DNA from: Tridacna crocea
Taxonomy: Eukaryota > Mollusca > Bivalvia > Cardiida > Cardiidae
Reading direction: 5' to 3'
Length of the DNA stretch: 64,000 nt
Assembly: GCA_943736015.1 (NCBI GenBank)
Contig: OX031064.1
Coordinates: forward strand, 34,275,361 to 34,339,360
Shown here one piece after another: positions 604 to 61,513 of the stretch. The number at the start of each line of letters is the position of its first letter. Within the stretch, counting starts at the first letter, position 1. The translations under genes and the position numbers were made by a program. The notes below the pieces were generated by a model. It had not been told where the DNA came from, did no database searches, and saw only the letters and a program-made list of their open reading frames with translations.

Positions 604-691
604 CTGCAGTTAAAGGGTGTGTGTATGCCCTGTCCACAATGTCCCCACTTTGAATTGTAAATGTAGGAAATTGTACAAACTGGCTCGAAAT
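604..691 (-). CDS. Exon 34: six-Cys module 4 after second SEA, first half (last exon in view)
   Basis: 88 bp, phase 1 to 2. Peptide FEPVCTISYIYNSKWGHC, then GQGIHTPFNC. Only phase 1 continues cleanly from exon 33 and gives three cysteines; the other open frame has none. Acceptor TTTCAACCCAG, donor GTAAGG. The partner exon and the gene's 3' end lie left of position 1. Confidence 0.78.
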
Positions 692-806
692 CTGGGTTGA
701 AATAAAGAAAATCATTATGAACACTGACTTGATGTACTAACATGAAATTATCCAGATTCAAGATGTCTTCAAATGCTTCTTTATCTTCTCCTTAACTCTT
801 TACCTC

Positions 807-1022
807 TTAACTCTTTACCACACAATCCCAACTTTTAACGGCCCTGAGAAAGAAGCCTTTTTGAAGACATTGTGTGCTGGTAACCAGCATATTCTCCTTT
901 TCCAACAATGTTTTCAATGCCTCTCAAAACAAATGTCAGTAATTGAGTCACATTTATTTTGTCATCTGCAATTGCTTTGAATTTGAAATAGTCCAAAATA
1001 TTGTCGTTTGGTAAAGAGTTAA
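807..1022 (+). mobile_element. TTAA hairpin element, type A, damaged core
   Basis: TTAA at both ends (807, 1019). The left palindrome arm is mostly deleted (TTGTGTGCTGGTAACCAGCAT). Confidence 0.85.
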
Positions 1023-1133
1023 AGTATTGAATGATTCAGCATTTTCAGCTATTCTACACCAAATCAGTCACTTCCGTAATTTTGCAGGTTGGCATAAACT
1101 TTACCCACCATCCAAGACTCTTTCATAATACTT

Positions 1134-1405
1134 TTAACCCTTAACCACACTAAAAGGATACTGAAGAAGAAACTTTTGAAAAGGAGAAAATGCTGGTAAA
1201 CATCATCTTCTCTATTTTCCACAAAGATAACAGTACTTTCAAACACTGTCTTTTCAAACACTGTGTATGTAACCAGCATTTTCTCCTTTTCCCACTATGT
1301 TTTTTACCGTGCTGGAAACAAATTTCAATTTTTGTGCTACATTCGTCATCTGCAAGTGCTTTCAACTTGGACCTGTGTAAAATTTTGTTGTTTGAGAAAG
1401 AGTTA
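1134..1405 (+). mobile_element. TTAA hairpin element, type A, core expanded
   Basis: Head TTAACCCTTAACCAC, tail GAGAAAGAGTTA. About 70 bp, including a doubled CTTTCAAACACTGT / CTTTTCAAACACTGT, is inserted between the palindrome arms. Confidence 0.8.
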
Positions 1406-1457
1406 GGTTTAGTAGGCCAAGGATTGTTTCTTAAAGATTACAGAAGTTTCCACTTAC

Positions 1458-1618
1458 AATAGCAGTTGATATCATATGGAGAATTAGGAAGTCCTGTTTC
1501 GTTCATCATTTTCCTGAACTCATCATACACCATGTGTTTGACATGGTAATACTGGCAATCTTCCCGATGTTTTGCCCTGAGACGGCCCAACACACAGTCA
1601 TCCAGCATGAAGTATGCC
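1458..1618 (-). CDS. Exon 33: six-Cys module 3 after second SEA, second half
   Basis: 161 bp, phase 2 to 1. Peptide AYFMLDDCVLGRLRAKHRED, then C, then NETGLPNSPYDINCY. Spacing C-x12-C-x30-C. Acceptor CACTTGTAG, donor GTAAGTG. Confidence 0.87.
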
Positions 1619-1622
1619 CTAC

Positions 1623-2261
1623 AAGTGGGTTAAAAATATATTTGCTACAAATTCTGCTGTTCATTCTTTATAAGACGACGGATATTTAACATGGTCCATA
1701 ATGAAAGCATTGAGGGGCAACAAATTAAATGCGGCCTTAAAGGTGGGTACTTAGAATCTCACCAAATTAAAAATATATATATATATCACTGAAATTTATG
1801 TGAAAAAACAATACAAATCATCAATAATAAAGAATCATAAAATTACCAAAAAAAATTTTTTTTGATGGTATTCCCTTAAAACGCTACATAGCCTCTGTAT
1901 TTTTAGATTTCACGTCAAAAAAGCATTGTGGGAATGTAAATTGACTGGCACGTGACTAATGATGCTTAAATTCCATAACATAACAAACATGTAATCATTG
2001 TCCATAATTTTTTCTTCGGACGCTGTTTGAAGTGTCATTTGTGTACTTCCGATATGTAAATGAACAAGTTGCTCATCTAAAAATAGACCGTTGTTCCCGT
2101 CGGTGTCGACCTGGGCCGTAGAAAATCTCTAATTTCTCATGTTTTCAGATGGTTTTCGACTATTGGGGTTTTATGAATGAAAATTAAAAGGCCTTGGGAG
2201 TATGAGGATGAATTTTTTGTATTTTTGTAAAAATTTCGTCCCAAAATCTGAAGTGCCACCT
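1623..2261. other. Intron sequence without recognised features
   Basis: AT-rich intron with a short (AT)n run near 1773-1786. I see no exon, hairpin element or inverted termini in this stretch. Confidence 0.5.
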
Positions 2262-2481
2262 TTAACACACAGTCCTGACTTTTAACGACCCTAAAAAAGA
2301 AGGCCTTTTGAAAGCATTGTGGGAAAAGGAGAAAATGCTGGTAACCAGCATTTTCTCCTTTTCCCACAAAGTTTTCTACCCTTCACGGACGAATTTCAAC
2401 TTTTGAGCCATACTTACATTGCTGTCTGCAAATGCTTTGAGTTTGGTCTGGTCTACAATTTCGTCAATTGGTGAGAGTTAA
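2262..2481 (+). mobile_element. TTAA hairpin element, type A
   Basis: Complete copy with an intact palindrome; TTAA at 2262 and 2478. Confidence 0.88.
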
Positions 2482-2482
2482 T

Positions 2483-2660
2483 GATGAAATGGTGAATATT
2501 TTGTGTAAAGTATAAAATGCAGGTTAATTAATTTCTTTCTTTATTCCACATTTTGTTATCAAAACACTTTTCCACTACGATTGGAAAAAAATGGGCTGTT
2601 GTACTAGATATGAAATGTTTCATGTATATCAGAAACTAATGAGACATTAAAGAAAAGATC
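2483..2660 (+). repeat. Intronic segmental duplicate of 1-180
   Basis: Copy in the intron between exons 32 and 33; slightly diverged from the copy at the window edge (see that entry). It begins right after a hairpin element that ends at 2481. Confidence 0.75.
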
Positions 2661-2817
2661 TGCACAACTGACTTTATCAGTTGAATTGTTTTCAAAGAGA
2701 ATGTTTTATCACAAAAAAAATTCAAGAAAAATATTCAAGCTGTGTGAAAAACCTATGCCCATAAACATATATGAATAGCAGATACAGGTTTTTTGTCTGT
2801 TCTTTATCACAGCATAT

Positions 2818-3035
2818 TTAATCCTTTGCAGCACAATGCTGACTTTTAACGACCCTGGCAAAGAAGCCTTTTGAAAAAATTTGAGCCACACTGAAATTGC
2901 CCCCTTTTCCTATAATGTTTTCTACCCTCCAAAAATCAAAATTCAAGCCTTTTGAAAAAATGTGACTGAAATTGTCCTCTGCAAATGCTTTCAATTTGGA
3001 CAATAATAAAATTTTGTTATCTGTTGAAGGGTTAA
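2818..3035 (+). mobile_element. TTAA hairpin element, degraded core
   Basis: Both ends preserved (TTAATCCTTTGC, GAAGGGTTAA) but the palindrome is replaced by TTTGAGCCACACTGAAATTG and a repeated AGCCTTTTGAAAAAAT. Confidence 0.75.
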
Positions 3036-3121
3036 AAAGAAAACTTTGTAGCATTCTTTACAAGTTTTATAAAAATTATGTGAAAAACGAAAAGCCATGG
3101 CAACATGATCATGAAACTTAC

Positions 3122-3266
3122 ATGCATGAGTCACGTGTGAAACCGTAATTGTCATATTCATCTGCTGTAAAAGTAAAGGGAAGCCAATCCTCTCTGTTAA
3201 AACATTCGGCAAATTCTTCTTCAATCAGGTATGGATCCTCACATGGGAATAATGGTGGAAGATAAC
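3122..3266 (-). CDS. Exon 32: six-Cys module 3 after second SEA, first half
   Basis: 145 bp, phase 1 to 2. Peptide YLPPLFPCEDPYLIEEEFAE, CFNREDW, then NYGFTRDSC. Three cysteines. Acceptor TACTACAG, donor GTAAGT. Confidence 0.85.
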
Positions 3267-3291
3267 CTGTAGTAGGAAAACCAATTCTATC

Positions 3292-3521
3292 TTAACCCTT
3301 TACCTGATATGCCAATTTGAGGCTCTTCCATTTCAGCAGCAAATAAAGATATGATGTTAAAAATATGGACAAATGCGGAAACAAATATCTGATTGAGTGG
3401 AAAACATTGTGGGAAAAGGAGAAACTGCTCGTAATGAGCAATTTCTCCTTTTCCCACAATGTTTTCAAAAGCTGTCTGTTGTTGATATGTCAAAGTGAGT
3501 ATCTATGGAGTAAAGGGTTAA
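3292..3521 (+). mobile_element. TTAA hairpin element, B/C hybrid
   Basis: GCTCGTAATGAGC core with GTGGGAAAAGG stem, but the tail GAGTATCTATGGAGTAAAGG belongs to type C. TTAA at both ends. Confidence 0.8.
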
Positions 3522-4317
3522 TATTCTCTATGACATTTACTTTCTTCTTTCCAGGAAATTTCTCATCCACTCTGTGCACAGAAAAAGTTGTTCTTTTATT
3601 ATCTGTTGTTTGCATATCTAACAGAGTGTATGAAAATATACAAATACATGTAGCTAGTGTTCAGGCTTAAACCTGTCCTTTTTCTAGTACCGGTAATATC
3701 AAAACTTTAATGAAATGAGGTCTGCAACTGAAAATAAGATGAGCCATGGGAGTTTAATGCTTTAGCAAGTCTGCACCATGCATGCAGGTTGAACTGGGTC
3801 AAAACTTTCTGTTCTTGGTAAATTTTCTGTATGTCAAAGGATCATTCTACCTAATGGTTTGGTCAGACGTTGACAAAATGGATTTTATGGATCTATAATG
3901 ATATGGTAACTTGCTTGGTATAGTCCATCTTGCAGATGTTATAAACCCCCTTCTACTAGAGCCAGGCTTAAATTTATCAGAGGAAAGCTTTCTAGAAACA
4001 CAGCTTTCTAGAAACAAATCTCCTCGAGCCAAGGTTAGGATCACTACATGGATCTTACCTTGGCTGACTGATCCCAATTTCGATATTCCTCTGGTGCGCC
4101 CTCAATCGGATACTGGTTATTACCCCCCTTTATATCATATTTCTGAAAGCCAATGAAATATCGTTTTACAAACTGCTTACGAATACAATTATTCAACATG
4201 AAGCGATAAGCAGACATCCACCTGGGCTTCCATGTTTACCTTCTATTCGATAGGTCACAACCTTATTCTATTTTTATCAAAGATAAAATGCTACTGTGAA
4301 GTAAAGGGTAAACATAC

Positions 4318-4463
4318 TGTCACATTCAGGTCTTTGGAACCAGCTAATATAATAGCCATGTTCATCCATCCATCTTTTAATCAAATCCAGTGTTTCATAT
4401 TCATCACATTCTGAGTCAGACACTAGATGCTCAGCGACACATCTACCTAAATCCACTGCTGCC
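4318..4463 (-). CDS. Exon 31: six-Cys module 2 after second SEA, second half
   Basis: 146 bp, phase 2 to 1. Peptide AAVDLGRCVAEHLVSDSEC, DEYETLDLIKRWMDEHGYY, then QRPECD. Spacing C-x10-C-x27-C. Acceptor TAAATTACAG, donor GTATGT. Confidence 0.85.
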
Positions 4464-4639
4464 CTGTAATTTATAAGAAAATATTATGATAGTTGAGATT
4501 TATCCAACAAATAAAACAAAATCATTTTTATATAATCATAATTATACTGTTTATTTCAATGGGCCAAAACATGGTAACAAGCTAGTATTGACTCAAAAGT
4601 GAACACTGAAATACTTAATGGCAGAGACAAAGGTAACTG

Positions 4640-5170
4640 GAGCTGTCACTGAATGTGACTTAACTCTTTACTACACAATCCCAACTTTTAACGACCCTGA
4701 AAAAGAAAGCTTTTGAAAACATTGTAGAATCAAAAGAGAAAATGATGGTAACCAGCATTTTCTCCTTTTCCCATAATGTTTTCTACCCTTCCCAAATGGA
4801 ATTTCAATTCTTGATTCACATTTATCTAGTTGTCTGCAAATGCTTTCAATGTGGACCAGTCAAAATTTTGTTGTCTGGGAAAGAGCTATTACCCCCCGCT
4901 AGCCCTTTGACAGATAAATGTGTCAAGTTCAAGGGGAGATAATTCCTCAACCAGGAAGAGTTGACACTTGAAAATTGCGTCTTGCAAATCTTCAGTAAGA
5001 TCAATATATATGCAATGTTTCAATAAAAAGGAAAACTGTAGGAGGAGTTTGCTACACAAAATTACTAGTACTTTGAACACAGATGGACAGAGAGATGGAT
5101 GGACACAAGGACAGACAGGCTGATTCCAGTATACCTCTGAAAACATTTGTTCTGTGGGAGTATAAAAATG
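4640..5170 (+). mobile_element. Dispersed repeat GAGCTGTCACTGAATG..., carrying a nested hairpin element
   Basis: Starts GAGCTGTCACTGAATGTGAC and ends GATTCCAGTATACCTC after a GGACAGAGAGATGGATGGAC run. Copies occur at 8562, 12172 and 40505. A hairpin element splits it at 4660-4888. Confidence 0.75.
4660..4888 (+). mobile_element. TTAA hairpin element, type A, with empty-site evidence
   Basis: Inserted in the GTGAC-TTAA-TACCCCC site of the host repeat. The unfilled site is seen at 8570-8586. The right TTAA has decayed to CTAT. Confidence 0.88.
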
Positions 5171-5330
5171 CTGTGCCCTACATGCCCAGTGTAAAGAGGG
5201 TTTGATGCATTTTCACAAAGTATCAACCCAGGCCAGCCTGAGCAGTCCACTGTCTATCCTTTTTGATATTGGTAAATTTTCTGCATGTCAAATGACCATT
5301 ATATACATCATGATCCATACAGTTAGTTGT

Positions 5331-5555: not shown

Positions 5556-5828
5556 ATTTTTTGTCTCTAGAATCAAAATATGGAGATGCATAAAAAAATC
5601 CCCCTCTTTACCTGACCATGGTTCAAATGAATTTGCCACATACCGACATCATATTGCTTGGTGATTTGGATCATTGAAATAACGTTTATTTTTATATTTA
5701 GAAAAAGATTGGGATTGAGGAACACCTTGTTATGTTTGGAAAGTCCGAAGTTCAAGAAATTGAACAAAAACTCCCTCAACCTTTACAACACAAAACAATC
5801 GCCAGGTTTACAGGTAACAAAAAAATAT

Positions 5829-6352: not shown

Positions 6353-6461
6353 CTGCAGCTATCAGTTGACATATAGTAAAACTGTGTGAACATGTCAAAC
6401 TCTTCTCTGCACGTTTTGTTTATCACATAGTCTATTTCATCTGAGTCATAACAGGCATTGT
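6353..6461 (-). CDS. Exon 30: six-Cys module 2 after second SEA, first half
   Basis: 109 bp, phase 1 to 2. Peptide NACYDSDEIDYVINKTC, REEFDMFTQFYYMSTDSC. Three cysteines; NKT is a possible glycosylation site. Acceptor CTTTTCAG, donor GTATGA. Confidence 0.85.
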
Positions 6462-8299: not shown

Positions 8300-8487
8300 C
8301 TTCACAATATTGTAAATTGAAGTTATAAAATCGGTCCACAGCTCCATCATGTGATGAGTAATTATCCCTCTTCAACTGACCATAAAATGTGCTTAATGCA
8401 TCAGTTTGTATTATGTCCTGCAGAAGCATGGATTCGCAGTACTCTGGAAGACTTTGCTGGATACATGAAGTGAACATATCATAGCCC
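8300..8487 (-). CDS. Exon 29: six-Cys module 1 after second SEA, second half
   Basis: 188 bp, phase 2 to 1. Peptide GYDMFTSCIQQSLPEYCES, LLQDIIQTDAL, then FNLQYCE. One codon shorter than its counterpart exon 9. Spacing C-x8-C-x43-C. Acceptor TATTCTAG, donor GTATTAG. Confidence 0.92.
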
Positions 8488-10254: not shown

Positions 10255-10357
10255 ATGCACTGATCTGCTGTATTCGTGCCATAAACAATTAATTCAAATT
10301 CATTATTACATAATTCTCCAATGCTGTTGAATATTTGGTAATAATCCACACATGTAT
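10255..10357 (-). CDS. Exon 28: six-Cys module 1 after second SEA, first half; GC donor
   Basis: 103 bp, phase 1 to 2. Peptide TCVDYYQIFNSIGELC, then NNEFELIVYGTNTADQC. Same C-x13-C-x16-C spacing as exon 8. The donor reads GCAAGT where exon 8 has GTTAGT, so this is an apparent GC-AG intron. With that choice the phase to exon 29 is correct. Acceptor ATTTCAG. Confidence 0.87.
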
Positions 10358-11649: not shown

Positions 11650-11758
11650 CTGGAATTGTCTGTACAACTGTCCATTCTGGCAAATACCTGGCTGGATTCA
11701 TTGCTAGTAATCCACTGTTGAGATACTCCAATACATTGTTTTCCGTTAATTCTGCTGG
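11650..11758 (-). CDS. Exon 27: SEA domain, part 4 and linker
   Basis: 109 bp, phase 0 to 1. Peptide PAELTENNVLEYLNSGLLAM, then NPARYLPEWTVVQTIP. Counterpart of exon 7. A hairpin-element tail ends about 13 bp beyond the donor GTATCC. Acceptor CTATTTCAG. Confidence 0.83.
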
Positions 11759-13092: not shown

Positions 13093-13159
13093 CTCATCTT
13101 CAAGGTAATTTGACAACAACACCAGTTGTCCATCTACAAATGTGCCAGGTTCGCTGGAT
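13093..13159 (-). CDS. Exon 26: SEA domain, part 3, altered cleavage site
   Basis: 67 bp, phase 2 to 0. Peptide SSEPGTFVDGQLVLLSNYLE then DE. FVDGQLxLLSNYL aligns with exon 6. The Gly-Ser of the usual cleavage site is Gly-Thr here, shifted within SEPGT, so autoproteolysis is probably weak or absent. Acceptor TTTTTACAG, donor GTATGC. Confidence 0.85.
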
Positions 13160-18869: not shown

Positions 18870-18937
18870 CTGAAAGTAAAGACATCAGCTTCCAGCAAGA
18901 CTCCTTTCAACATGGTATATCCTAGACCAGTTGTTAT
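18870..18937 (-). CDS. Exon 25: SEA domain, part 2
   Basis: 68 bp, phase 0 to 2. Peptide ITTGLGYTMLKGVLLEADV then FTF. Counterpart of exon 5 with identical length and phases. It is followed by a 5.7 kb intron holding the 16768-18724 palindrome repeat. Acceptor CTCAACAG, donor GTATGT. Confidence 0.82.
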
Positions 18938-20578: not shown

Positions 20579-20685
20579 TTCTTTCACCATTTGGTCTTTT
20601 AGTGCTCTATAGGCAGAACTTGATCTGTCTTGCAGATCCGGATCAAACTCATCAGTTATAGCAACAGTAAATCTATATCTTTTGG
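20579..20685 (-). CDS. Exon 24: SEA domain, part 1
   Basis: 107 bp, phase 1 to 0. Peptide KRYRFTVAITDEFDPDL, then QDRSSSAYRALKDQMVKE. The FTVAITDEF and L-x-DRSS-x-AY run is a typical SEA start. Counterpart of exon 4. Acceptor TTTTTCAG, donor GTAAGT. Confidence 0.9.
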
Positions 20686-21093: not shown

Positions 21094-21255
21094 CTCCATA
21101 TTCAGGGGTTGGAGTTACACAGATTTTTTCCATACATCCGCTGTCACAGCACTTCATAATGTTGTCACCACAATCGTAGTCTTCCTTGCAATATGTTTTA
21201 TTTTCCGGACACATGTAGCTAAAGGGGCACTGACCTGGCTTCTTTTTCACAGGTT
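21094..21255 (-). CDS. Exon 23: WAP domain
   Basis: 162 bp, phase 1-1. Peptide PVKKKPGQCPFSYMCPENKT, YCKEDYDCGDN, then MKCCDSGCMEKICVTPTPE. Direct homologue of exon 3. Followed in phase by SEA exon 24. Acceptor TTTTCAG, donor GTGAGT. Confidence 0.93.
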
Positions 21256-21650: not shown

Positions 21651-21797
21651 CTGGTTCAACGCACTGGTAGCCACAACCATTAAAGCAACACTTCTTATCC
21701 CAGAGACATTCGACGTCCTGATTGCATTCTTGAATACATATTCCTGCTTGACCATCTGGTACCACTGGACATCTACCTTCTTTTTCATAGGTAAAAC
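21651..21797 (-). CDS. Exon 22: WAP domain (extra copy)
   Basis: 147 bp, phase 1-1. Peptide FTYEKEGRCPVVPDGQAGIC, IQECNQDVECLWDKKCC, then FNGCGYQCVEP. All eight WAP cysteines are in register, including the CC pair. The acceptor TTCTTAAAG was preferred over internal AGs because it keeps phase and adds the usual KxGxCP lead-in. No equivalent exists in the right-hand super-unit. Donor GTAACA. Confidence 0.88.
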
Positions 21798-21834: not shown

Positions 21835-24424
21835 ACTCTTTACCAAATAACAAAATTTTAGACTGGTCCAAATTGAAAGCATTTGCAGACGACAAATTAA
21901 ATGTAACTCAACAAGAGAGCTATGATGGCCCTGAAATCGCTCACCTGAGTCTATTGACCAAACATGAACCATCTAGTTTTCCAGTGACCTAGTTTTTTAT
22001 CAGACATTACCCATCATCAAACACTTTTGAGATATCAATAAGACAAACATTCTGACCAAGTTTCATGAGTATTGGACTGAAAATGTGGCCTCTACAGCGT
22101 ACAAAAGGTTTTTCTAAGATTTCACCAAGTGACCTAGTTTTGGACCCGACATTTACCCATTATCAAACTCTTTTGAGACATCACCAAAACAAACATTCTG
22201 ACCAAGTCTGAAGAGTATCAGACAGAAAATGTAGCCTCTAGAGTGTACACGAGGTTTTTCTAATATTTGACCCATTGACCTAGTTTTTGACTCCACATGA
22301 CCCATTTTCAAACTCATTCAAGGTATCACCAGGACAAATATTAAGAACAAATCTTTGGAGTATCAGACTGAAAATGTGTCCTCCAGAGCATACAAAAGGT
22401 GTTTATAACATTTGACCTATTGACCCAGTTTTTGACCTAACATGACCAATTTTCAAATTCATCCAAGATATTATAAAGGCAAACATTCTGACTAATTTTC
22501 AAGAGTGTTGGACTGAAAATGTGGCATCCAGAGCATATTCAAGGTTTTTCTAAGATTTGACCTGGTGACCTAGTTTTTAACCCCCAATGACCCACTTTAA
22601 TACCTGTCTAATATATCATCAAGGCAAACATTCTGACCAACTTACAAGAGTTTTGGACTAAATATGTGGCCTCTAGAGCATAAAAAAGGTTTTTCTAACA
22701 TTTGACCTGGTGACCTAGTTTTTGACTCCACATGACCCATTTTCAAACTTGTCCAAGATATCATAAAGGCAAATATTCTGACCAACTTTCAAGATTTGAC
22801 CTAGTGACCTAGTTTTTGACCCCACTGACCCATTTTTAAAATTTTCCAAGATATCATCCAGGCAAACATACTGACAAACTTTCACGAGTATCCGACTGAA
22901 AATGTGGCCTCTAGAGCGTGCACAAGGTTTTTCTAAATCTGACCTAGTGACCTAGTTTTTGACCCCACATGACCCATTTTCTATCTTGTCCGAGATATCA
23001 TCCAGGCAAGCATTCTGATTGATTTTCATGAGTATCCAACTGAAAATGTGGCCTCTAGAGCGTACACAAGGTTTTTCTATTATTTGACCTAGTGACCTAG
23101 TTTTTGACCTGGCATGACCAATTTTCAAACTCGTCCTAGATTTCATCAAAATGTAGCCCCTAGAGTGTACACAAGGTTTTTCTAAGATTTGACCTACTGA
23201 CCTAGTTTTTCATCTGACATGAACCATTTTCAGACATGTAAGATATATCATCAAGACAAACATTCTGACCAACTTTCAAGAGTTTTGGACTGAAAATGTG
23301 GCCTCTAGAGTGTACACAAGGTTTTTCTAAATCTGACCTAGTGACCTAGTTTTTGACCCGACATGACCCATTTTCAAACTTGTCCGAGATATCATCCTGG
23401 CAAACATCCTGTCCAATTTTCATGAGTATCCAACTGAAAATGTGGCCTCTAGAGCGTACACAAGGTTTTTCCAAGATTTGACCTAGAGACCTAGTTTTTG
23501 ACCCGACATGACCCATTTTCAAACTCATTCAAGATATCATCCAGGCAAACATCCTGACCAACTTTCATGAGTATCGGACTCAAAATGTGGCCTCTAGAGC
23601 GTACACAAGGTTTTTCTAAAATTCGACCTAGTGACCTAGTTTTTGACCCAACATGACCCATTTTCAAACTTATCTGAGATATCATCAAAACAAACATTCT
23701 GAAGAACTTCCAAGCGTTTTGGACTGAAAATGTGGCCTCTAGAGCATACACAAGGTTTTTCTAAGATTTGACCTAGTGTCCTAGTTTTTGACCCGACATG
23801 ACCCATTTTCAAACTCGTCCTAGATACATGTATCATTCAAGCAAACATCCTAACAAACTTTCATGAGTATCGGACTGAAAATGTGGCCTCTAGAGCGTAC
23901 ACAAGGTTTTTCTAAAATTTGACCTAGTGACCTAGTTTTTGACCCCACATGACCCATTTTCAACCTCCTTTGAAATATCATCCAGACAAACATCCTGACC
24001 AACTTTCATGAGTATCCAACTGAAAATGTGGCCTCTAGAGCGTACACAAGGTCTTTCTAAGATTTGACCTAGTGACCTAGTTTTTGACCCAACATGACCC
24101 ATTTTCAAACTCGTCCGAGATTTTATCGAGGCAAACATCCTGATTAACTTTCATGAGTATCGGACCGAAAATGTGGCCTCTAAAGCGTACACAAGGTAAA
24201 AAGTTGACAAGGGACCACGGACACAGCACGATCACAATAGTTCACCATGAGTACTTCGTGCTCAGGTGAGCTAAAAATTGAAATTTGTTTCCAGCAGGGT
24301 AGAAAACATTGTAGGAATAGGACAAGATGCTGGTTACCAACATTTTTTCCTTTTCCAATTATGTTTTTAAGAGTCTTCTAGTTCAAGGTAGTGAAAACCA
24401 GGAATTGTTTGGAAAAGTATTAAC
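21835..24424 (-). mobile_element. TTAA hairpin element, type A, host of the 2.4 kb array element
   Basis: Left part to GACAAATTAAATGTAACTC, right part from AATTGAAATTTGTTTCCAGC. Compare the unbroken junction AACTCGAAAATTGAAATT at 50940. The left end lies about 36 bp from the exon 22 acceptor. Confidence 0.88.
21912..24275 (+). mobile_element. ACAAGAG...GTGAGCTAAAA element with about 16 tandem units of ~145 bp
   Basis: Head ACAAGAGAGCTATGATGGCC, then units marked by TGACCTAGTTTTTGACC, GACCCATTTTCAAACT and AATGTGGCCTCTAGAG, at 22085, 22224, 22375, 22520, 22665, 22903, 23047 and onward to 24172. Tail TTCGTGCTCAGGTGAGC. Subterminal GCTCACCTGAG / CTCAGGTGAGC are inverted. Non-coding; the minus-strand open frames in it are repeat translations. 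Confidence 0.88.
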
Positions 24425-27976: not shown

Positions 27977-28107
27977 CAGTACAGTTTTCTGGTCGCATGA
28001 CAGAATAACTAAATAGTTTTCTAGTAGAGTTCTCTACCATGTAATCTGGCATCACAGAGGAAGGGCAGACATATCTTTCAGGAACCTTATCACTACACTG
28101 CCAGAAC
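27977..28107 (-). CDS. Exon 21: six-Cys module 7, second half
   Basis: 131 bp, phase 2 to 1. Peptide FWQCSDKVPERYVCPSSVM, then YSVMRPENCT. Spacing C-x9-C-x27-C. The single leftover G completes a Gly codon with exon 22 across a 6.2 kb intron. Acceptor CTTTTCAG, donor GTAAGC. A hairpin element ends nine bases from this donor. Confidence 0.83.
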
Positions 28108-28949: not shown

Positions 28950-29031
28950 AGACAAGGTTCATACAGATACTGATAACAAGACAAAGCTGCTACTCCACTC
29001 AAGTCCTCACAGTCATCGTCGTAGGTTACAT
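28950..29031 (-). CDS. Exon 20: six-Cys module 7, first half
   Basis: 82 bp, phase 1 to 2, the smallest first-half exon. Peptide VTYDDDCEDLSGVAALSC, then YQYLYEPC. It still holds exactly three cysteines. Acceptor ATAATGCAG, donor GTAAGT. Confidence 0.82.
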
Positions 29032-30327: not shown

Positions 30328-30467
30328 TTTTGCATTCATTAATCGTTGTTGAGACATTTAAATATCTCAGGGATATATTTCCTATGTCAACTATCATCTC
30401 CTCTGTGCACCTTGGGATCTTTTCTCTATAGCAGTCTATAGACGTTCTGTTTATGGCATCAAGAGCA
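30328..30467 (-). CDS. Exon 19: six-Cys module 6, second half
   Basis: 140 bp, phase 2 to 1. Peptide ALDAINRTSIDCYREKIPRC, TEEMIVDIGNISL, then TINECK. Spacing C-x7-C. NRT, NIS and NVS are possible glycosylation sites. Acceptor CTTTTCAG, donor GTATGT. Confidence 0.85.
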
Positions 30468-32078: not shown

Positions 32079-32187
32079 ATGCAACGTGTCGGCAGTGGAA
32101 GGTTGCCACCATAGATCAAGGCAAGATACAATTGTGAGCCGCAAGTGTCTCCATATTCTGTCAATCCCTCATAGCACTCCTTGATGT
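32079..32187 (-). CDS. Exon 18: six-Cys module 6, first half
   Basis: 109 bp, phase 1 to 2. Peptide IKECYEGLTEYGDTCGSQL, then GGNLPLPTRC. Three cysteines. Acceptor GTTTTCCAG, donor GTAAGAC. Same length as exon 30. Confidence 0.83.
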
Positions 32188-33746: not shown

Positions 33747-33898
33747 CGGAACACATAGCAATGTTCAATCCAGTCATGCCAATAACATAATCAGGGTATT
33801 CCATAGAAGCAGCTATCACTTTATCCATTACAACCTCTTCTGGGAAACAGCCTGGCTCTGCTGATTGTAGAGTTGGAACAAAGCATGCCTCGTAAATA
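33747..33898 (-). CDS. Exon 17: six-Cys module 5, second half
   Basis: 152 bp, phase 2 to 1. Peptide IYEACFVPTLQSAEPGCFPE, EVVMDKVIAASME, then GLNIAMCS. Spacing C-x11-C; same length as exons 2 and 13. Acceptor TTTTTCTTAG, donor GTAGGT. Confidence 0.85.
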
Positions 33899-34965: not shown

Positions 34966-35107
34966 GCGCAACGCTCATATCCTGTCAATTGATATCCAAG
35001 TTCTTCTTCATAGCTCGTCACACCACTTGAGCAGATAGGTAGCAAATACTCCAGGATTCCAGCATTATCAAGACAGTCATATGGTATCAAAGGCCTGGTT
35101 GTGTATG
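34966..35107 (-). CDS. Exon 16: six-Cys module 5, first half
   Basis: 142 bp, phase 1 to 2. Peptide YTTRPLIPYDCLDNAGILEY, LLPICSSG, then QLTGYERC. Resembles exon 1: both have Cys, GIL/GII-EY, PIC. Acceptor TTTTTTTCAG; donor GTAAAT is slightly weak. Confidence 0.83.
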
Positions 35108-38017: not shown

Positions 38018-38226
38018 CAACACACTCATCATATGTGGGTAGATTTATCATATTCAACATATCACTGTCCAACGTATCCTGTGCTGATGATAGGACAACT
38101 TGTACATAAATGTTCATTCCATCTCTCACAGCTTCCAACACACTGCTTTCCTTCTCAAACTCATCAACTTCAAACATACATGGGGAACCTTTGGCCATAA
38201 AGCATGAAACTCCTCTTTCAAACAGG
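38018..38226 (-). CDS. Exon 15: six-Cys module 4, second half
   Basis: 209 bp, the longest exon in view, phase 2 to 1. Peptide LFERGVSCFMAKGSPCMF, a long helix-like stretch (EFEKESSVLEAVRDGMNIYV), then LPTYDECV. Spacing C-x7-C-x51-C. Acceptor CCTTACAG, donor GTGAGTG. Confidence 0.88.
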
Positions 38227-41482: not shown

Positions 41483-41654
41483 CTGCACTTTAATGGCACA
41501 CCAGGGCGATCAGCACTTTCTAGAATGTTGACATCTTTATTGTTGGATATTGCCAGTGATGCCAAATTATAAAGAGGAGTGAAACATCGGGATGCGGCAT
41601 CATTCAAGCGGAAGACCATCAGCGTATCAACGTAACAATCACTGAAACCATATT
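41483..41654 (-). CDS. Exon 14: six-Cys module 4, first half
   Basis: 172 bp, phase 1 to 2, the longest first-half exon. Peptide YGFSDCYVDTLMVFRL, AASRCFTPLYNLASLA, then DRPGVPLKC. Acceptor TGTTTCAG, donor GTATGT. Confidence 0.85.
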
Positions 41655-42757: not shown

Positions 42758-42909
42758 CTTCTTCACAAGATACATTTCTTTCTGGTAGAAGTCCATCCCT
42801 GACATAGGGTCTCATCATCATCTCTTTGACTTGATCTGGAGCACACAATTCGTAAGGAAGGCTTCCCTGCAATCCTCTCTGTACACATCCCCTTAGACTT
42901 ATCTCTGTG
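42758..42909 (-). CDS. Exon 13: six-Cys module 3, second half
   Basis: 152 bp, phase 2 to 1. Peptide TEISLRGCVQRGLQGSLPYE, LCAPDQVKEMMM, then LPERNVSCEE. Spacing C-x13-C is the widest of the second-half exons. Donor GTAAAG; a short hairpin element lies about 16 bp past it. Confidence 0.85.
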
Positions 42910-43792: not shown

Positions 43793-43940
43793 CTGCATTT
43801 TTCTTTTGGAGTAAGTGTATCCATTTTGAAATCAATGCATCCAGTCTCCAAGATTGCTCTGGTAACATTTTCATTGACACAAAGTTCGGGCAAAGTATTT
43901 GGTAGCGCATCAATAAAATCATCAATTCTGTCACCAGTTC
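43793..43940 (-). CDS. Exon 12: six-Cys module 3, first half
   Basis: 148 bp, phase 1 to 2. Peptide TGDRIDDFIDALPNTLPELC, then NENVTRAILETGC and PKEKC. Three cysteines, with an extended acidic N-terminal segment before the first. Acceptor TTTAAAAG, donor GTATGG. Confidence 0.85.
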
Positions 43941-45187: not shown

Positions 45188-45330
45188 CTGTCACAGGACA
45201 TAGACTTCCACTCATACCATATTCTTTCATGAGATAGTTAAGAACATTTGGTACTAAATTACGGACATCACATGTCTGGTTAACATACAATGCATTCACA
45301 TAGATACAGCCTATGTAGTTTTCTAGTTTC
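45188..45330 (-). CDS. Exon 11: six-Cys module 2, second half
   Basis: 143 bp, phase 2 to 1. Peptide KLENYIGCIYVNALYVNQTC, then NVLNYLMKEY and SLCPVT. Spacing C-x11-C-x23-C, the shortest last interval of any module. NQT is a possible glycosylation site. Acceptor TTTTTTGCAG, donor GTAAGC. Confidence 0.85.
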
Positions 45331-46341: not shown

Positions 46342-46438
46342 CAGCAATCTTCTCCTTCTGACTGTTTGTAGCTGTCCAAATAAACCCAGCAGTCATCCTG
46401 TGAGATTCTAGGAATGCCAAGTGATGAGCAAACCAGAT
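46342..46438 (-). CDS. Exon 10: six-Cys module 2, first half
   Basis: 97 bp, phase 1 to 2. Peptide LVCSSLGIPRISQDDCWVYL, then DSYKQSEGEDC. Shortest first-half exon except exons 20 and 34. A truncated hairpin element ends within a few bases of its donor GTGAGT. Acceptor CCGTGATAG after a strong pyrimidine tract. Confidence 0.82.
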
Positions 46439-47125: not shown

Positions 47126-47316
47126 CTTCACACTTCTGTATGCTGAAATCATAAAATCTGTTTGGAGCTTCTCCAGGTAGTGAATTGTTACTCATCTGGA
47201 TTAACTGATCATAAAATTTGTATAACGCCTCTGTTTGCAGCATATCTTGAACAAAGTCTGGTTCACAGTACTCTGGAAGGTTTTGTTGAACACAGGAAGT
47301 GAAGTTGTCATAGCCC
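47126..47316 (-). CDS. Exon 9: six-Cys module 1 after SEA, second half
   Basis: 191 bp, phase 2 to 1. Peptide GYDNFTSCVQQNLPEYCEPD, then VQDMLQTEAL...RFYDFSIQKCE. Closest relative is exon 29 (GYDMFTSCIQQSLPEYCES). Spacing C-x8-C-x44-C. NFT and NNS are possible N-glycosylation sites. Acceptor ATTTTAG, donor GTATTTT. Confidence 0.92.
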
Positions 47317-49567: not shown

Positions 49568-49670
49568 ATGCATTGTTCTTGACTTGTATTTCCATACACA
49601 ATCATTTCAAATGCATAATCACAGGTCCTTCCAATACTCTTGAACATTGCTTCATAATCTACACAAACAG
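49568..49670 (-). CDS. Exon 8: six-Cys module 1 after SEA, first half
   Basis: 103 bp, phase 1 to 2. Peptide VCVDYEAMFKSIGRTCDYAF, then EMIVYGNTSQEQC. Spacing is C-x13-C-x16-C, identical to exon 28, and CVDY, IG, FE, IVYG are shared, so these two exons descend from one ancestor. Acceptor TTTTCCAG, donor GTTAGT. Confidence 0.9.
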
Positions 49671-50665: not shown

Positions 50666-50774
50666 CTGCAACTGGCACTACCGCTGTCTCATCTGGAAGA
50701 TGTCTATTAGGCAATACTACCATGAACACTTCTTTCATAGTCTGGAGCACAATTCCTTCATTCAGCTCCACAGT
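50666..50774 (-). CDS. Exon 7: SEA domain, part 4 and linker
   Basis: 109 bp, phase 0 to 1. Peptide TVELNEGIVLQTMKEVF, then VVLPNRHLPDETAVVPVA. Same size and phase as exon 27; shared positions include VEL/AEL, VL, P-x-R-x-LP and TVV. The C-terminal helix of SEA probably ends here. Donor GTATCAAT is weak but matches exon 27's GTATCC. Confidence 0.85.
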
Positions 50775-52071: not shown

Positions 52072-52138
52072 CTCATTTTCAAAATACAAGTAATTAGACA
52101 AAAGCTCCAGCCATCCATCAACATATATGCTACCAGAT
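52072..52138 (-). CDS. Exon 6: SEA domain, part 3, with GS cleavage-site motif
   Basis: 67 bp, phase 2 to 0. Peptide SGSIYVDGWLELLSNYLYF then ENE. GSIYV sits where self-cleaving SEA domains carry GS(V/I)VV, with cleavage between Gly and Ser. VDGxLxLLSNYL is conserved with exon 26. Autoproteolysis is possible but not shown. Acceptor TTTCAG, donor GTGAGG. Confidence 0.88.
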
Positions 52139-54549: not shown

Positions 54550-54617
54550 CTAAAGTTGTAGATTGTTACATTCTTTACAATGGATCTCATCTTGGTACCC
54601 CATAGACCATGTAATAT
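54550..54617 (-). CDS. Exon 5: SEA domain, part 2
   Basis: 68 bp, phase 0 to 2. Peptide ILHGLWGTKM and RSIVKNVTIYNF, the beta strand leading to the SEA cleavage-site region. Exact size match to exon 25, which reads ITTGLGYTMLKG. NVT is a potential N-glycosylation site. Acceptor TACAACAG, donor GTATGT. Confidence 0.85.
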
Positions 54618-56195: not shown

Positions 56196-57050
56196 TTCAT
56201 ATTATTAAACATGTTTAACACCATCCTAATACCTACTGACTTTTTCTCAAAGGTCTGAGAAGCAGACATCCATTACAACTAAAGATAATTCTGGTCATTG
56301 TTACCTTGTTAGGGGATGGTTGGTGTAAATCTAATCTCATCACAACAGTGATAAAGGTAGTAAAATAAGACTAATGCTACTCATCAGGAAATCCAGAACT
56401 TATGATGAGAGAGACTGGCATTCTTCCCTCATACAATTGTCTCTCATATTAACTTTATACTTTCTAAAGCAAATTTGCTATAGATTTTAAAAACATCCAT
56501 GTTCAATGGGTATATAACATACAATAAGATGAAGTATCATTAACCTTCCTTCATTTGTGCCATGAAGCAATTCAGCAAGACTTAGTGTGTACATGTAAAT
56601 CTACAAGTATCCTTTATGATTCCTAAGGGAACATAATAATGATAAATGACAGACTTTACTTTGGCCTGCAAGTGAACAGTGCATGATGTCATTAATCAGT
56701 AGCACTGCTATGGAAGGATGATATCCCTAGAAATAAAAAACGATCAAGGTAGGTTTTACAGGTAAACAGTTGAATTAATAAGAAGCAATGAGAAATATAA
56801 CAACAACATGGAAGCAAGGTACATGCAGTCAGTTTTTTCACACATGTTGTTTCAATTATCATTGATATCGCTGTAGACTGACAGTTGGTACTCATTCATG
56901 GGCTTGAATCATGGAAGGCGCAGGATGCATTATTAATGTAAAGTGAAATTATTTTGGCAAAAAGGAGAAACTGTGAATAATGTGATATCCCTCTCTTTGT
57001 TCCTAGGTTTTCTATTGCAGTCAACACCACAATACAAAAAGAGTACTTAC
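56196..57050. other. Intron between exons 4 and 5, mostly unique
   Basis: About 850 bp without exons. A faint GGCAAAAAGGAGAAACTG lies at 56957. Confidence 0.4.
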
Positions 57051-57157
57051 TTGTTCCTCTAGCTGACTTTTCAGTGTTACAAACTCATAACTTGAGTGGT
57101 CTCGCAACTGAGTGTCAAATTCTTCTTGTAGGGCAAAGGTAAACCTGTATCTTTTAG
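57051..57157 (-). CDS. Exon 4: SEA domain, part 1
   Basis: 107 bp, phase 1 to 0. Peptide KRYRFTFALQEEFDTQLRDHSS, then YEFVTLKSQLEEQ. The LRDHSSYEF core matches the SEA pattern of a beta strand followed by L-x-D-x-SS and an amphipathic helix. Same length and phase as exon 24, with KRYRFT shared. Acceptor TTTCCAG, donor GTAAGT. Confidence 0.88.
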
Positions 57158-57192
57158 CTGGAAATTGATTAATCATTTACTTCTAAATGGCC

Positions 57193-57444
57193 TGCAACAC
57201 GGGAAAAGGGGCATTCGGACATTTGCATAAAGCGTCGTCTCGGATCAGCCTGCGCAGTCCGCACAGGCTGATCCGAGATGGCACTTTCCGTTTTTACGTA
57301 ATTTTCTGTTACACACAAGTCTACTGTAGCACAAAATCTAATGTAGTCGTAAAGTGCCGTCTCGGATTAGCCTGCGCGGACTGCGCAGGCTGATCCGAGA
57401 CGACGCTTTACGCAAATGTCCGAATGCCCCTTTTCCCATGTTGC
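57193..57444. mobile_element. Terminal-inverted-repeat MITE (GCAACACGCGAAAAGG), copy 2
   Basis: GCAACACGGGAAAAGGGGCA / CCCCTTTTCCCATGTTGC ends; inner CAGCCTGCGCAGTCCGCACA hairpins are better preserved than at 40868. It lies 36 bp from the exon 4 acceptor. Confidence 0.88.
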
Positions 57445-57718
57445 ATGCCAAATAATTTCATCTCTAGACATAGGGCATAATATTCCATACAAATGAGCTA
57501 TTCACATCTAATTAGTTTTCTCTGTAGACCAATAGCACATATATAGTCATAATATTTTTACTTCTAAATCATTTACTTTTGAGACACTTAGTACAAAATT
57601 AGATGCATTAGAAATTGACATCAAAATAATTTTCTCTCTACAAACATTACAAAGACTTAGATGTAATATCCACTTCCATCTAAATTGTTTACACTATACA
57701 CACATAAAACATATACAG

Positions 57719-58060
57719 TTTATTTCATCAGCTTGTGGTTAATATGGGGAAATATTTTCCGACAAAAGGAAAGGTATGTGAAAATAACTTGTGCCTTACG
57801 GCAGTCGTTATTTTCGTGGACCTTTCCCTATTGAGGCAAATATTTCCCCATAATAACCAGAAGCTGATGAAATAAATTATATATTTCCTCTGATTATTTT
57901 GTCAAAGAATGCCACTTTTAAAACTAGTGATCTAGACTATTTAGCAAAGTAGAACAAAAAAGTAGTTCCAGATTTTTGGCAGCACTGTGACTGGGAAATA
58001 ATTCCCCCCAGCTTAAATCATGACATTGCTTTACCCATAACATTTCTAAAAATAGATACA
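57719..58060 (-). mobile_element. Foldback element, inverted copy of 8862-9157
   Basis: ATTTCATCAGCTTGTGGTTA and AGAAGCTGATGAAATAAA bound a palindrome of about 165 bp; the block continues to CATTTCTAAAAATAGATACA. Confidence 0.75.
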
Positions 58061-58409
58061 TAAAATACAATATATTTAGATAAAACAGCCATTTACATCT
58101 TAATGATTTACTCTCTAGACACGTAACAGCTATGTAAACTATGTTCTCTTTAAACACATAGCAATAGTAATTTTCTAGATTTCATATCTAGACACATTTA
58201 TTATACATGACATATAACCCATTCACAATCAAGTAAATTCCTGTCCAGACACACAGGAAACATTTTAGATGTAAAAGCCTTTTACATCTAAATAATTAAC
58301 TCTCTTGTCTCATAGCCCATCTTTCAGATACTTGAGGTGTTCATCCTTTCTACGAAATATTCATTTAATTTCCATAGCACAAATACTTCATCAAAAAGTC
58401 CTGTCTTTG
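58061..58409. other. Intron sequence with repeated word TTTACATCTAA
   Basis: Loose recurrence of ATTTACATCTTAATGATTTA / TTTTACATCTAAATAATTAA and similar from 57480 to 58300 suggests an old degenerate minisatellite. Confidence 0.4.
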
Positions 58410-58715
58410 TCTGAAAAGAATATTTGAAAACATTAGGGAAAAAGAAAAAATTGCGGGTATCAAGCATTTCACCTTTCAAACAGTACCAGCTACTCTTCCG
58501 AAAGTAATTCTCATCATTTAACCTCTTACCATACAACAAAATTTCTAGCCTTTTTCTAAGTTGGAGCATTTGCAGACCACAACTTAAATGGGGGTCAAAT
58601 GATTGACCTTATCTATGATAAAGTAGAATACATTGTGGGAAAAGGAGAAAATGCTGGTCACCAGCATTTTCTTCTTTTCCCAAAATGTTTTCAAAAGCCT
58701 TCTCTTTCAGGTATC
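58410..58715 (-). mobile_element. TTAA hairpin element fragment plus a diverged copy
   Basis: A core scrap at 58415-58480, then a copy from TTAACCTCTTACC (58518) with core GCTGGTCACCAGC; right end lost. Confidence 0.68.
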
Positions 58716-58757
58716 GAATTGTGATAGATTTTATACACCTGTCCAAAAAGAATGCAC

Positions 58758-58990
58758 TTAACTCATTAACAAACAACAAAATTTTAGTTTTGTCCAAATT
58801 GAAAGCAATTGCAGACGATAAAATAAAAGTGACTGAAAATTTGAAATTTGTTTTGTGAACGGTAGAAAACATTGTGGGAAAAGGAGAAAATGCTGGTTAC
58901 CAGCATTTTCTTCTTTTCCCGCAATGTTTTCTAAAGGCTTCTTTCTCAGGATCATCAAAAGTATATAGGGATTGTGTGGTAATGGCTTAA
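58758..58990 (-). mobile_element. TTAA hairpin element, type A
   Basis: Full copy, with GTATATAGGGATT showing a four-base insertion near the right end. Confidence 0.88.
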
Positions 58991-59148
58991 AGACAGTAGT
59001 TCAAATGAAGCTCAAATGATTTGATATGTTGTTGAAAGAGTAGGAAATACCAGTCGTACCTTGGTAATAGGAGAAAATGCTTGATACAGTGCTCTAAAAA
59101 GATTTCTTTGTAAGGGGCTCAAAAAACAATGCGCTAGAGTTTACTAAC

Positions 59149-59307
59149 CACCGGGTTCAGGATCTGGAGTTACACAGATTGGTTCCATACATCCACTGTC
59201 ACAACACTTCATGTTGCCATAACAATCGTCATGTTCCTTGCAGTATGTTTTGTTTTCTGGACACATGTAGTTATCTGGGCACACACCTGGCTTCTCTGGC
59301 CTAAGAT
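59149..59307 (-). CDS. Exon 3: WAP four-disulfide-core domain
   Basis: 159 bp, symmetric phase 1-1. Peptide begins LRPEKPGVCP and continues NYMCPENKTYC, HDDC, MKCCDSGCMEPIC. This is the WAP signature: KPGxCP, the adjacent CC pair and the C-x3-C end. WAP domains are small disulfide-knotted extracellular modules, often protease inhibitors. It is near-identical in plan to exon 23 (PENKTYCKE and KCCDSGCME in both). Here only one WAP precedes SEA, against two in the other super-unit. Donor GTTAGT. Confidence 0.92.
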
Positions 59308-59691
59308 CTAAACAACAACGAGTTTGAAGTACAGTATAACAGTTATTTTGTCATAATTGAACAAATCTTCAAACAAGTACAGTATGTAGGTGACAAAAAC
59401 TGGCTGCAGTTGCTTTTTCAGTGAAATTTCTAGGTCCAATAAGGGCTATACAGGCAAAGACGATGACGGAAACTATACCATGAGATTAGCACTGCTTGCC
59501 TAACATTATAGCTGAAGATCTAACACTGTTAATTATCCATATTTTACAAAGGAGTTTTTGAAGTTGTCTGCTGCAAATTTGTCTGCTGATGAAAAAAGAC
59601 AAACTTTACAAGTCTTGCCATAATAGTTAGGATTATCAAATGCTGTTAAAAGAACACAAAAGGCACCAGTATAATGAAACAATTGTCTTAC
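59308..59691. other. Intron between exons 2 and 3, no second WAP exon
   Basis: I searched this stretch for a counterpart of exon 22 and found none; no element recognised. Confidence 0.5.
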
Positions 59692-59843
59692 CAACACAAC
59701 TGGTATAGTCTAATCGTGTTATTTCCCTGAAAAACTCCACATAGTCTAGTATGACATTTGTCATAAAGCCTTGTATCTCCTCTTTTTCAAAGCAATGGGG
59801 ATATCTTTCCGTCAGAGCATGGGCAAAGCATTCTCTATACCAT
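59692..59843 (-). CDS. Exon 2: second half of a six-Cys module (Cys 4-6)
   Basis: 152 bp, phase 2 to phase 1, peptide WYRECFAHALTERYPHC...TSCV. The pattern is C-x11-C, then a long probably helical stretch (EEIQGFMTNVILDYVEFFRE), then the last Cys just before the donor GTAAGAC. It pairs with exon 1 to make one module and is followed in phase by the WAP exon 3. Confidence 0.85.
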
Positions 59844-59898
59844 CTGGCCATGAAAAATAAGACAATTCATACAAGTGGTGCTCTATCAAAAGAAGATT

Positions 59899-60129
59899 TT
59901 AACCCTTTCCCAAACAATCCCTAGTTTTTATTACTCAGAGATAGAAGCCTTTTGAAAACATTGTGGGCAAAGGAGAAAATGCTGGTAACCAGCATTTTTC
60001 CCTTTTCCCACAATGTTTTCTACCCTGCTGGAAACAAATTTCAATTTTTTTGAGTGAGATTTATTTTGTCGTCTGCAAGTGCTTTCAATTTGGACCAGTC
60101 TACAATTTTGTCGTTCGGTGATGGGTCAA
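59899..60129 (+). mobile_element. TTAA hairpin element, type A
   Basis: Right end TCAA is also the left end of the type B copy that follows. Confidence 0.88.
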
Positions 60130-60354
60130 CCCTTTCCCAAACAAGCCCTGGTTTTTACGTGTCTACAGTAAAAGTCTTTTGAAAACACTTTAAGAAAAAG
60201 GAGAAATTGCTAATGATGAGCAATTTCTCCTTTTCCCACAGTGTTTTCTACCCTTTTTGAGAACTTTCTGGCATTTTACCCAAATCCAAAATTGTCGTCT
60301 GCAAACTCTTTTGGTTTGGAAGAGTCCAAAATTTGTTGTTTGGTAATGGGTTAA
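60126..60354 (+). mobile_element. TTAA hairpin element, type B
   Basis: Left arm changed to CACTTTAAGAAAAAGG while the right arm is standard. Confidence 0.87.
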
Positions 60355-60478
60355 TGCATCAGTGAGGCATTATACAAACCAAGTCCTCATATGATTATAG
60401 ATGCAGAAAATCTACTTCTGACAAGGAAGGAACTAACATGTATGTGGTTGAATGCTACTACGACATGCTGAAAAGGGA

Positions 60479-60653
60479 TTAACTCTTTACCACACAATCC
60501 CGACTTTAAACCACCCTGAGAAGGAAAGCTTTTGAAAACAGTATGGGAAAAGGAGAAAATGCTGGTAACCAGCATTTTCTCCTTTACCCACGATGTTTTC
60601 TACCATTTTTTTGTCATCTGCAAATCCTTTCAATTTGAACCAGTCTACAATCA
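60479..60653 (+). mobile_element. TTAA hairpin element, type A, tail cut
   Basis: Ends at GAACCAGTCTACAATCAT, where the next copy begins. Confidence 0.8.
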
Positions 60654-60859
60654 TAGGTTTTCATGTCCCTGAGGAAGAAACTTTCTGACAACATTGTGGG
60701 AAGAGGAGAAAATGCTGGTAACCGGCATTTTCTTCTTTTCCAATAATGTTTTCTTCCCTTTCGAACAAAAATTTCACTTTTTGTGTCATCTTACTTTTGT
60801 CATCTTCAAGTGCTTTCAATTTGGACAAGTCTATAATTTTGTCATTTGGTAAAGAGTTG
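60654..60859 (+). mobile_element. TTAA hairpin element, type A, head cut
   Basis: Begins at GGTTTTCATGTCCCTGAGGA; tail GTAAAGAGTTGA. Confidence 0.8.
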
Positions 60860-60956
60860 AGCAAAAATTTTGACATGTCGGCTTGAATCTATTGCGCAGG
60901 CTGACATTAGTCAAAACTTTTTGCAGATGCATTAAACTCTCTTTTCATACAGAATA

Positions 60957-61101
60957 GGTAAAAATGTCAGAGGTAAAAATGCCATAGGAAAAAAATGTCA
61001 CAGGTAAAAATATCATAGGTAAAATGTCATAGGTAAACATTTCAGAGTCAAAGTGGTAAATATGCCATAGGTAATAATGTCATAGGTAAAAATGTCAGAT
61101 G
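60957..61101 (+). repeat. Minisatellite, ~15 bp unit AGGTAAAAATGTCAT
   Basis: Nine or so imperfect units. Confidence 0.85.
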
Positions 61102-61120
61102 TATTTATCATGGTATAAAT

Positions 61121-61205
61121 ATGTAGGGTTAGCTCAGTTGGTCAAGACTAAGCAAGTTCGAAATCTTGTCAGGGTTCACTTATTTCTGGTCTCTGAAACA
61201 TCTGA
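61121..61205 (+). mobile_element. tRNA-like SINE fragment
   Basis: GGGTTAGCTCAGTTGGTCAA is a strong A-box-like head and AAGTTCGAAATCTTG a B-box-like stretch. It is too short and irregular for a tRNA gene. Confidence 0.6.
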
Positions 61206-61214
61206 GATAGCAGG

Positions 61215-61366
61215 GCAGAAACAGTCCAAGAAAAGGAGACAATGCTGGTTACCAGGGTTTTCTCATTTTCCCACAATGTTTTTTTTTAGGATCCTATCTC
61301 AGGGTCGTTAAAACCAGGGGTTGTTTGGTAAACAGTCTAAAATTTTCTCGTTTGGTAAAGAGTTAA
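61215..61366 (-). mobile_element. TTAA hairpin element with a second tail
   Basis: Core plus GGGGTTGTTTGGTAAA, then CAGTCTAAAATTTTCTCGTT...GAGTTAA, the opposite end of the element; finishes five bases from exon 1. Confidence 0.75.
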
Positions 61367-61371
61367 CTTAC

Positions 61372-61513
61372 CCACAAGTGTCAGCTGTGTTCAGAACAGT
61401 GCCAGATTGCAGTTCATATGTTTTTATACTGTTCAGGCAAATAGGAGCTGCATATTCTATTATACCAGCTTTTTTTGGACAATTGTTATTCAAGTCTGGC
61501 CATATTATGGCAC
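61372..61513 (-). CDS. Exon 1: first half of a six-Cys module (Cys 1-3)
   Basis: Most N-terminal exon in view, 142 bp, phase 1 to phase 2. Peptide contains NNNCPKKAG, APICLNS and ADTC, giving the three cysteines expected of a first-half exon. Acceptor TTACAG, donor GTAAGTTAA. The TTAA of an adjacent hairpin element forms the end of that donor, so the insertion stops five bases from the exon. The upstream partner exons lie beyond position 64000. Confidence 0.8.

Follow-up and report, generated by a model that had tools for sequence, protein, structure and literature searches.

A putative giant modular gene of the bivalve Tridacna crocea joins WAP and SEA domains to an apparently undescribed six-cysteine module

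The stretch of DNA analysed here, called the window, spans 64,000 nucleotides of the bivalve Tridacna crocea (contig C9, GenBank OX031064.1; C9:34275361-34339360, within a 1.05-Gb genome of 31 contigs) and holds part of what appears to be a very large gene for a modular extracellular protein. The model places every exon on the minus strand, so that the gene reads from high positions to low; coordinates are given as window positions, negative values and values above 64000 denoting the flanks. Exons were found by scanning for AG-exon-GT stretches with open frames, which were chained in phase and then curated by hand; a similarity search by single exons, for which three half-modules and two WAPs served as seeds, returned few relatives, and it was the scanning of splice sites, phase and composition that succeeded. 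The curated window model comprises 34 exons, the first at 61372-61513 and the last at 604-691, with 4369 exonic bases and a mean exon length of 128.5 bp, and its joined frame gives 1455 residues with no stop. The first-pass annotation, made from the sequence letters, had proposed 34 exons averaging about 130 bp and joining in frame to about 1458 codons, in the order one six-cysteine (6C) module, WAP, SEA, seven 6C modules, two WAP, SEA and three and a half 6C modules; exon number and size agree closely with the model, and the module order is identical in it. Writing B and A for the two three-cysteine exons that make up one 6C module, the window reads B-A, WAP, four SEA exons, seven B-A pairs, WAP, WAP, four SEA exons, three B-A pairs and a last B.

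Followed in the direction of the gene, the window opens with 6C module M31 (exon B, 61372-61513, three Cys, phase 2/2; exon A, 59692-59843, three Cys, phase 1/1), a WAP exon with eight Cys (59149-59307; Pfam 2.1e-7, and also matched in the genome) and the four exons of the first SEA domain (57051-57157 and 54550-54617, joined SEA Pfam 5.5e-8; 52072-52138, with the cleavage-like motif GSIYV; 50666-50774). Module M32 follows (B 49568-49670, A 47126-47316), and then four modules which module comparison places at positions 1 to 4 of a recurring cassette: M33 (B 46342-46438, A 45188-45330), M34 (B 43793-43940, A 42758-42909), M35 (B 41483-41654, A 38018-38226) and M36 (B 34966-35107, A 33747-33898). 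Modules M37 (B 32079-32187, A 30328-30467) and M38 (B 28950-29031, A 27977-28107) complete the series of seven. Two adjacent WAP exons, each with eight Cys (21651-21797, Pfam 1.9e-12; 21094-21255, Pfam 9.5e-8), precede the second SEA domain (20579-20685, joined SEA Pfam 2.7e-5, below cut-off; 18870-18937; 13093-13153, with GTFVD at the cleavage-loop position; 11650-11758), and the window closes with M39 (B 10255-10357, A 8300-8487), M40 (B 6353-6461, A 4318-4463), M41 (B 3122-3266, A 1458-1618) and exon B of M42 (604-691), whose A exon is outside the window at -1315 to -1146. Except where Pfam or module comparison is named, these assignments are those of the curated model, in which exon 10255-10357 requires a GC donor and the exons at 34966, 8300 and 4318 have weak donors. 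Also seen, in the intron that precedes the WAP exon at 21651-21797, is a tandem array (21983-24197) of a transposon-derived kind, its unit about 145 bp long (TGACCTAGTGACCTAGTTTTTGACCC...); such arrays are common in bivalve genomes.

The assignment to the WAP and SEA families was borne out by a Pfam search of the joined 1455-residue translation, which matched WAP in three stretches (1.6e-17) and SEA in two (3.7e-12) and no other family at E<=0.1. Scanned exon by exon, all three WAP exons of the window and all three in the flanks (159326, -35502 and -89649) score above the 20.8-bit cut-off of PF00095. Two of the four SEA units of the gene exceed the cut-off of 26.4 bits for PF01390, namely the N-terminal unit (38.6 bits), which stands behind an array of EB modules and reads SPGSIVAQLLIQF (Pfam 1.3e-9), and the first SEA domain of the window (33.3 bits); the second window SEA domain, taken alone, reaches 24.7 bits, slightly under the cut-off. 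The account of SEA cleavage in PMC6954182 gives GSVVV or GSIVA as the motif leading to autoproteolytic cleavage. A motif of the GS[VI] type is present in the loop between strands 2 and 3 in two of the four units, as GSIVA in the N-terminal SEA and as GSIYV in window SEA 1; the second window domain carries GTFVD there, and the fourth unit carries DGAVY. A whole-genome search with the SEA family gave no match even at this locus, because the SEA domains are split over exons, and is uninformative on absence elsewhere. The EB modules, all of which are in the flanks, match PF01683 (cut-off 24.3) when nine are joined (136.4 bits, 3.3e-40, eight stretches); five of them scanned singly each fall below the cut-off.

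The main building block of the protein is the 6C module, formed by a B exon carrying cysteines C1-C3 and an A exon carrying C4-C6, in fixed alternating phases. Exactly six cysteines are present in 62 of the 69 modules of the full chain, with median spacings of 13, 17, 8, 11 and 27 residues, and two modules are each encoded by a single fused exon (-4216 to -3908, L020; -54130 to -53822, L015). Homology between B and A halves was not detectable (hhalign probability 0.2). AlphaFold predictions, made at modest confidence for single half-modules only (the window modules being split over two exons), gave two helices for one A half (mean pLDDT 63.6) and one long helix for one B half (76.5), both taken from the window. 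Pfam scans of six modules and one fused module, 24 A halves, 16 modules and the window protein yielded nothing significant, the lowest E for a 6C sequence being about 0.02 and every score lying beneath the family cut-offs; four modules had no match in NCBIfam, and PDB profile searches with A, B and the whole module returned none, none and one hit at E 1.6, none of them significant. The module, called unrecognised at first pass, accordingly keeps that description with respect to Pfam, NCBIfam and PDB profiles, and is apparently an undescribed domain, as judged from its sequence. In a paralogue search the matches listed, at least 56, all fall at this locus, though further paralogues may lie elsewhere; no convincing 6C halves turned up at eight loci of 3 kb, two of them overlapping, near other WAP matches (best E 0.28).

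Two WAP clusters were seen elsewhere in the genome. At C15:8823722-8854717, inside a cluster at 8.77-8.87 Mb, four WAP matches of equal score are spaced about 10.3 kb apart and resemble a recent tandem duplication; at C3:49105321-49135338 there are five plus-strand matches in 30 kb, and the 3-kb loci of three of these contained no convincing 6C halves.

Extending the window by 120 kb of downstream and 150 kb of upstream flank showed that the first-pass description of the gene as open at both ends had been an understatement: the chain continues for at least 149 kb past the upstream edge, and the TAA that closes it (-105534 to -105536, in a terminal exon beginning at -105253) is 105.5 kb beyond the downstream edge. 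The full chain has 170 internal exons (213333 down to -97876) and the terminal exon, covers 318,870 bases and encodes 7,825 codons, about five times the window part alone. All 169 internal junctions are in phase and the frame is open until the TAA; acceptors are AG in 170 of 170 cases, and donors are GT in 168 and GC in two, the GC-AG introns at window position 10255 and flank position 83024 each being required for the B-A alternation. Introns range from 384 to 8157 bases, with a median of 1444.5. Hand curation dropped 19 of 141 chained exons as spurious, repeat-derived candidates and inserted 14; later additions were 33 exons (32 upstream and one at 83024), with one boundary replaced, and then one SEA exon.

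The modelled protein begins with an array of 12 EB modules followed by a Thr/Pro linker and a SEA domain, next to which come six 6C modules, a WAP, a SEA-like unit and twenty-five 6C modules; its middle part consists of WAP, SEA, seven 6C, WAP-WAP, SEA, fifteen 6C, WAP and a further fifteen 6C; and it ends with WAP, one EB, a last four-cysteine module, itself one of the 69, and the terminal exon. This gives totals of 69 6C, 6 WAP and 13 EB modules and three Pfam-recognised SEA domains (one of them slightly under the cut-off), together with a hydrophobic C-terminal segment. Without its N-terminus the resolved protein has a mass of about 885 kDa, a pI of 4.32, 545 cysteines and 113 N-glycosylation sequons, values that fit an extracellular, hydrated, disulfide-rich material; serine, threonine and proline make up 6.2, 5.8 and 3.9% of the resolved part. 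When the EB array was used to search the genome, 22 matches were returned: the 12 known modules, nine others on the gene's strand that lie upstream (E from 1.6e-4 up to 0.75) and reach position 34508935 (window coordinate 233575), and one weak match on another contig (E 0.57). From the nine upstream EB-like matches the gene likely spans at least 339 kb. The analysis supports the first-pass claim that WAP, SEA and an unrecognised six-cysteine module are combined in a giant modular gene, and we consider it probable that the window represents the central part of a single gene of at least 319 kb, encoding an acidic, disulfide-rich, SEA-cleavable extracellular protein with a helical 6C module.

How this protein would end is decided by the terminal exon, which holds LAKYAAMVVLCLISFHFPL, a stretch with a Kyte-Doolittle value of 1.72 over 19 residues, followed by 18 residues and the stop; it is likely, if not sure, to span a membrane and leave a short tail. 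A single giant protein that is fully secreted, whether to matrix, mucus, shell or adhesive, and that lacks any membrane anchor is a possibility to be taken seriously, even if we lean away from it: of all parts of the model the terminal exon is the least secure, and published accounts place WAP proteins in the mollusc shell matrix (PMC3374290) and in limpet adhesive mucus (PMC7333891). The in-phase position of the terminal exon, with its hydrophobic stretch so near the stop, speaks for the anchored form, as do the 14 kb beyond it, where no exon candidate scores above 7.7.

Within the chain, the 6C modules show two levels of higher-order repetition. A four-module cassette is present in six copies (M15-18, M21-24, M28-31, M33-36, M48-51 and M63-66), with a mean identity of 38-52% at the same position versus 16.9% between positions, and the block M40-M53 recurs as M54-M68 (M62 being extra) at 62-98% identity. 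These repeats indicate that the gene grew twice over, through old cassette copies and later through a recent block of about 14 modules; that the positions are kept distinct suggests that the modules may do different jobs in the chain. The look of tandem duplication in the long blocks, together with introns of up to 8.2 kb, gives some colour to a reading in which the model has strung together a number of adjacent paralogues, each about 1000-2500 residues long and extending, for instance, from one WAP to the next. We regard this as unlikely, since each of the 170 exons has splice sites of compatible phase, the B-A alternation crosses the block borders, and the sole terminal exon found comes after the last WAP and EB modules; nor does the model need an internal start or stop exon, no systematic search for such exons having been made.

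The exon chain was further compared with controls. The residue weights of the chain score favour cysteine and were chosen after the first exons had been seen; the controls were scored with identical weights, and since phase agreement is a condition of chaining it is the difference in score, and not the phase, that counts as evidence. Candidates for three-cysteine exons (phases 1,1 or 2,2, score >=10) number 16 on the minus and one on the plus strand of the window, and 101 on the minus strand, one on the plus strand and none in the reversed sequence across 334 kb. Automatic chaining of the window scored 219.8 (34 exons) on the minus strand, the plus strand reaching 5.4 and the reversed sequence 20.1, and over 334 kb it scored 1244.4 versus 31.1, 31.9 and 26.5 for the controls, about 40 times lower. 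Paralogous modules are under purifying selection: the pooled dN/dS is 0.355 for 14 recent module pairs (1283 codons), 13 of which are below 0.5, and 0.29 for 11 older pairs (1068 codons), which were chosen by hand and use some modules twice. A decayed or untranscribed exon array, or a chance pattern, is very improbable and largely refuted by these controls and the dN/dS values: the exons are sparse in repeat-rich DNA, yet 7,825 codons run without a stop (candidates had to be stop-free), young and old pairs alike show purifying selection, and the controls fall far behind. The two fused modules L020 and L015 were seen to share 98% protein identity with a dS of 0.087, the lowest of the 14 recent pairs except M53/M68, hinting at recent conversion.

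Several points weigh against one giant, SEA-cleavable and membrane-anchored protein. The chain stops short of the 5' end, and neither that end nor a signal peptide nor a transcript was seen; of the nine EB-like matches farther upstream, several have poor E values (up to 0.75). Chaining required phase agreement, and hand curation shaped part of the model. Pfam SEA does not match the SEA-like unit at 153973-158649 and, since GTFVD and DGAVY both lack the GS motif, window SEA 2 and this fourth unit may not cut. For the terminal exon there is no paralogue that could serve as a check, the hydropathy of its hydrophobic stretch is barely typical of a membrane span, and a tail of 18 residues follows that stretch. 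The pair M53/M68 (-31878 to -33211 versus -87353 to -88713) has a dN/dS of 3.24 (dN 0.078) on a very small dS of 0.024; the numbers are small, and selection on it may be relaxed or positive. Tissue, membrane anchor and function are all inferred.

In the literature searched, no described protein with this architecture was found, in line with the first-pass annotation, which knew of none; unnamed predicted relatives may exist in mollusc proteomes, transcript sets or animal protein databases. Among the closest known proteins is vertebrate UMODL1 (olfactorin), a modular surface or matrix protein which combines WAP, SEA and EGF-type modules with a C-terminal membrane segment and itself has FN3, EMI and ZP domains, the available description mentioning no 6C array (PMC8874799). 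In the joined window protein and the flank pieces scanned, which do not include the 5' end of the gene, FN3, EMI and ZP had no match, and the tail pieces scanned likewise had none to ZP, only the four-cysteine module and the terminal exon following the last EB. UMODL1 is also far shorter than the present chain. With the membrane mucins MUC1 and MUC16 the protein shares SEA domains with a GS-type autoproteolysis motif and a possible membrane anchor; unlike them, its resolved part has only a short Thr/Pro linker and no long Ser/Thr/Pro region (the unseen 5' end could differ in Pro/Thr/Ser content), and its SEA domains are far from the C-terminal hydrophobic segment. EB-module proteins resemble it in the N-terminal EB array, which is here followed by a 6C/WAP/SEA body.

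Among mollusc proteins, perlwapin and the shell WAP proteins of Lottia likewise carry several WAP modules in an extracellular setting (PMC3374290). Two of the three Lottia proteins, of about 85 and 103 kDa, combine WAP and antistasin-type modules, and as described there none of the three has SEA, the SEA protein listed (Lotgi1|232880) being chitin-binding (PMC3374290); WAP proteins of mollusc shell and adhesive mucus are, in the published accounts, much smaller and have other partners (PMC3374290, PMC7333891). The ShKT/SXC module also has six cysteines and is reported from secreted mucins of one nematode (PMC7333891). The scanned 6C modules gave no Pfam match to ShK, and their cysteine spacing is their own. 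The ShK module is about half the length of the 6C module. The kind of protein, a giant modular extracellular one, is known, and what is apparently new is the 6C domain.

A separate observation concerns C31:26516-27850, where COX1 reads with three in-frame TGA codons; this is probably a mitochondrial contig.

Returning to the single anchored protein, we can sketch how it might work. The chain would pass through the endoplasmic reticulum, where each 6C module would fold into a helical bead stapled by disulfides; those SEA domains whose GS motif is intact would cut themselves, the halves remaining held non-covalently; and the C-terminal hydrophobic segment would anchor the chain in the membrane of an epithelium. 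The outcome would be a long, force-releasable and protease-resistant fibre or gel on the epithelial surface, serving as a protective or adhesive coat in which the WAP modules resist proteases. Protease-inhibiting or antimicrobial activity is not universal among WAP modules. We put forward tentatively, as a proposal that falls a little short of an even chance, that the 6C modules form an undescribed all-helical, disulfide-stapled family, whose founding member would be a giant surface or matrix protein of some 8,000-8,500 residues, grown by satellite-like, higher-order duplication of position-specific cassettes and cut by its SEA domains into segments that are held non-covalently and separable by force.

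If the gene is transcribed as modelled, its product would, to our knowledge, be among the longest modular extracellular proteins, and it would offer a new disulfide-rich domain for structural work, a main building block without a Pfam match. With positions kept distinct under purifying selection while cassettes duplicate, it would also allow the growth of a giant gene to be dated within one locus.

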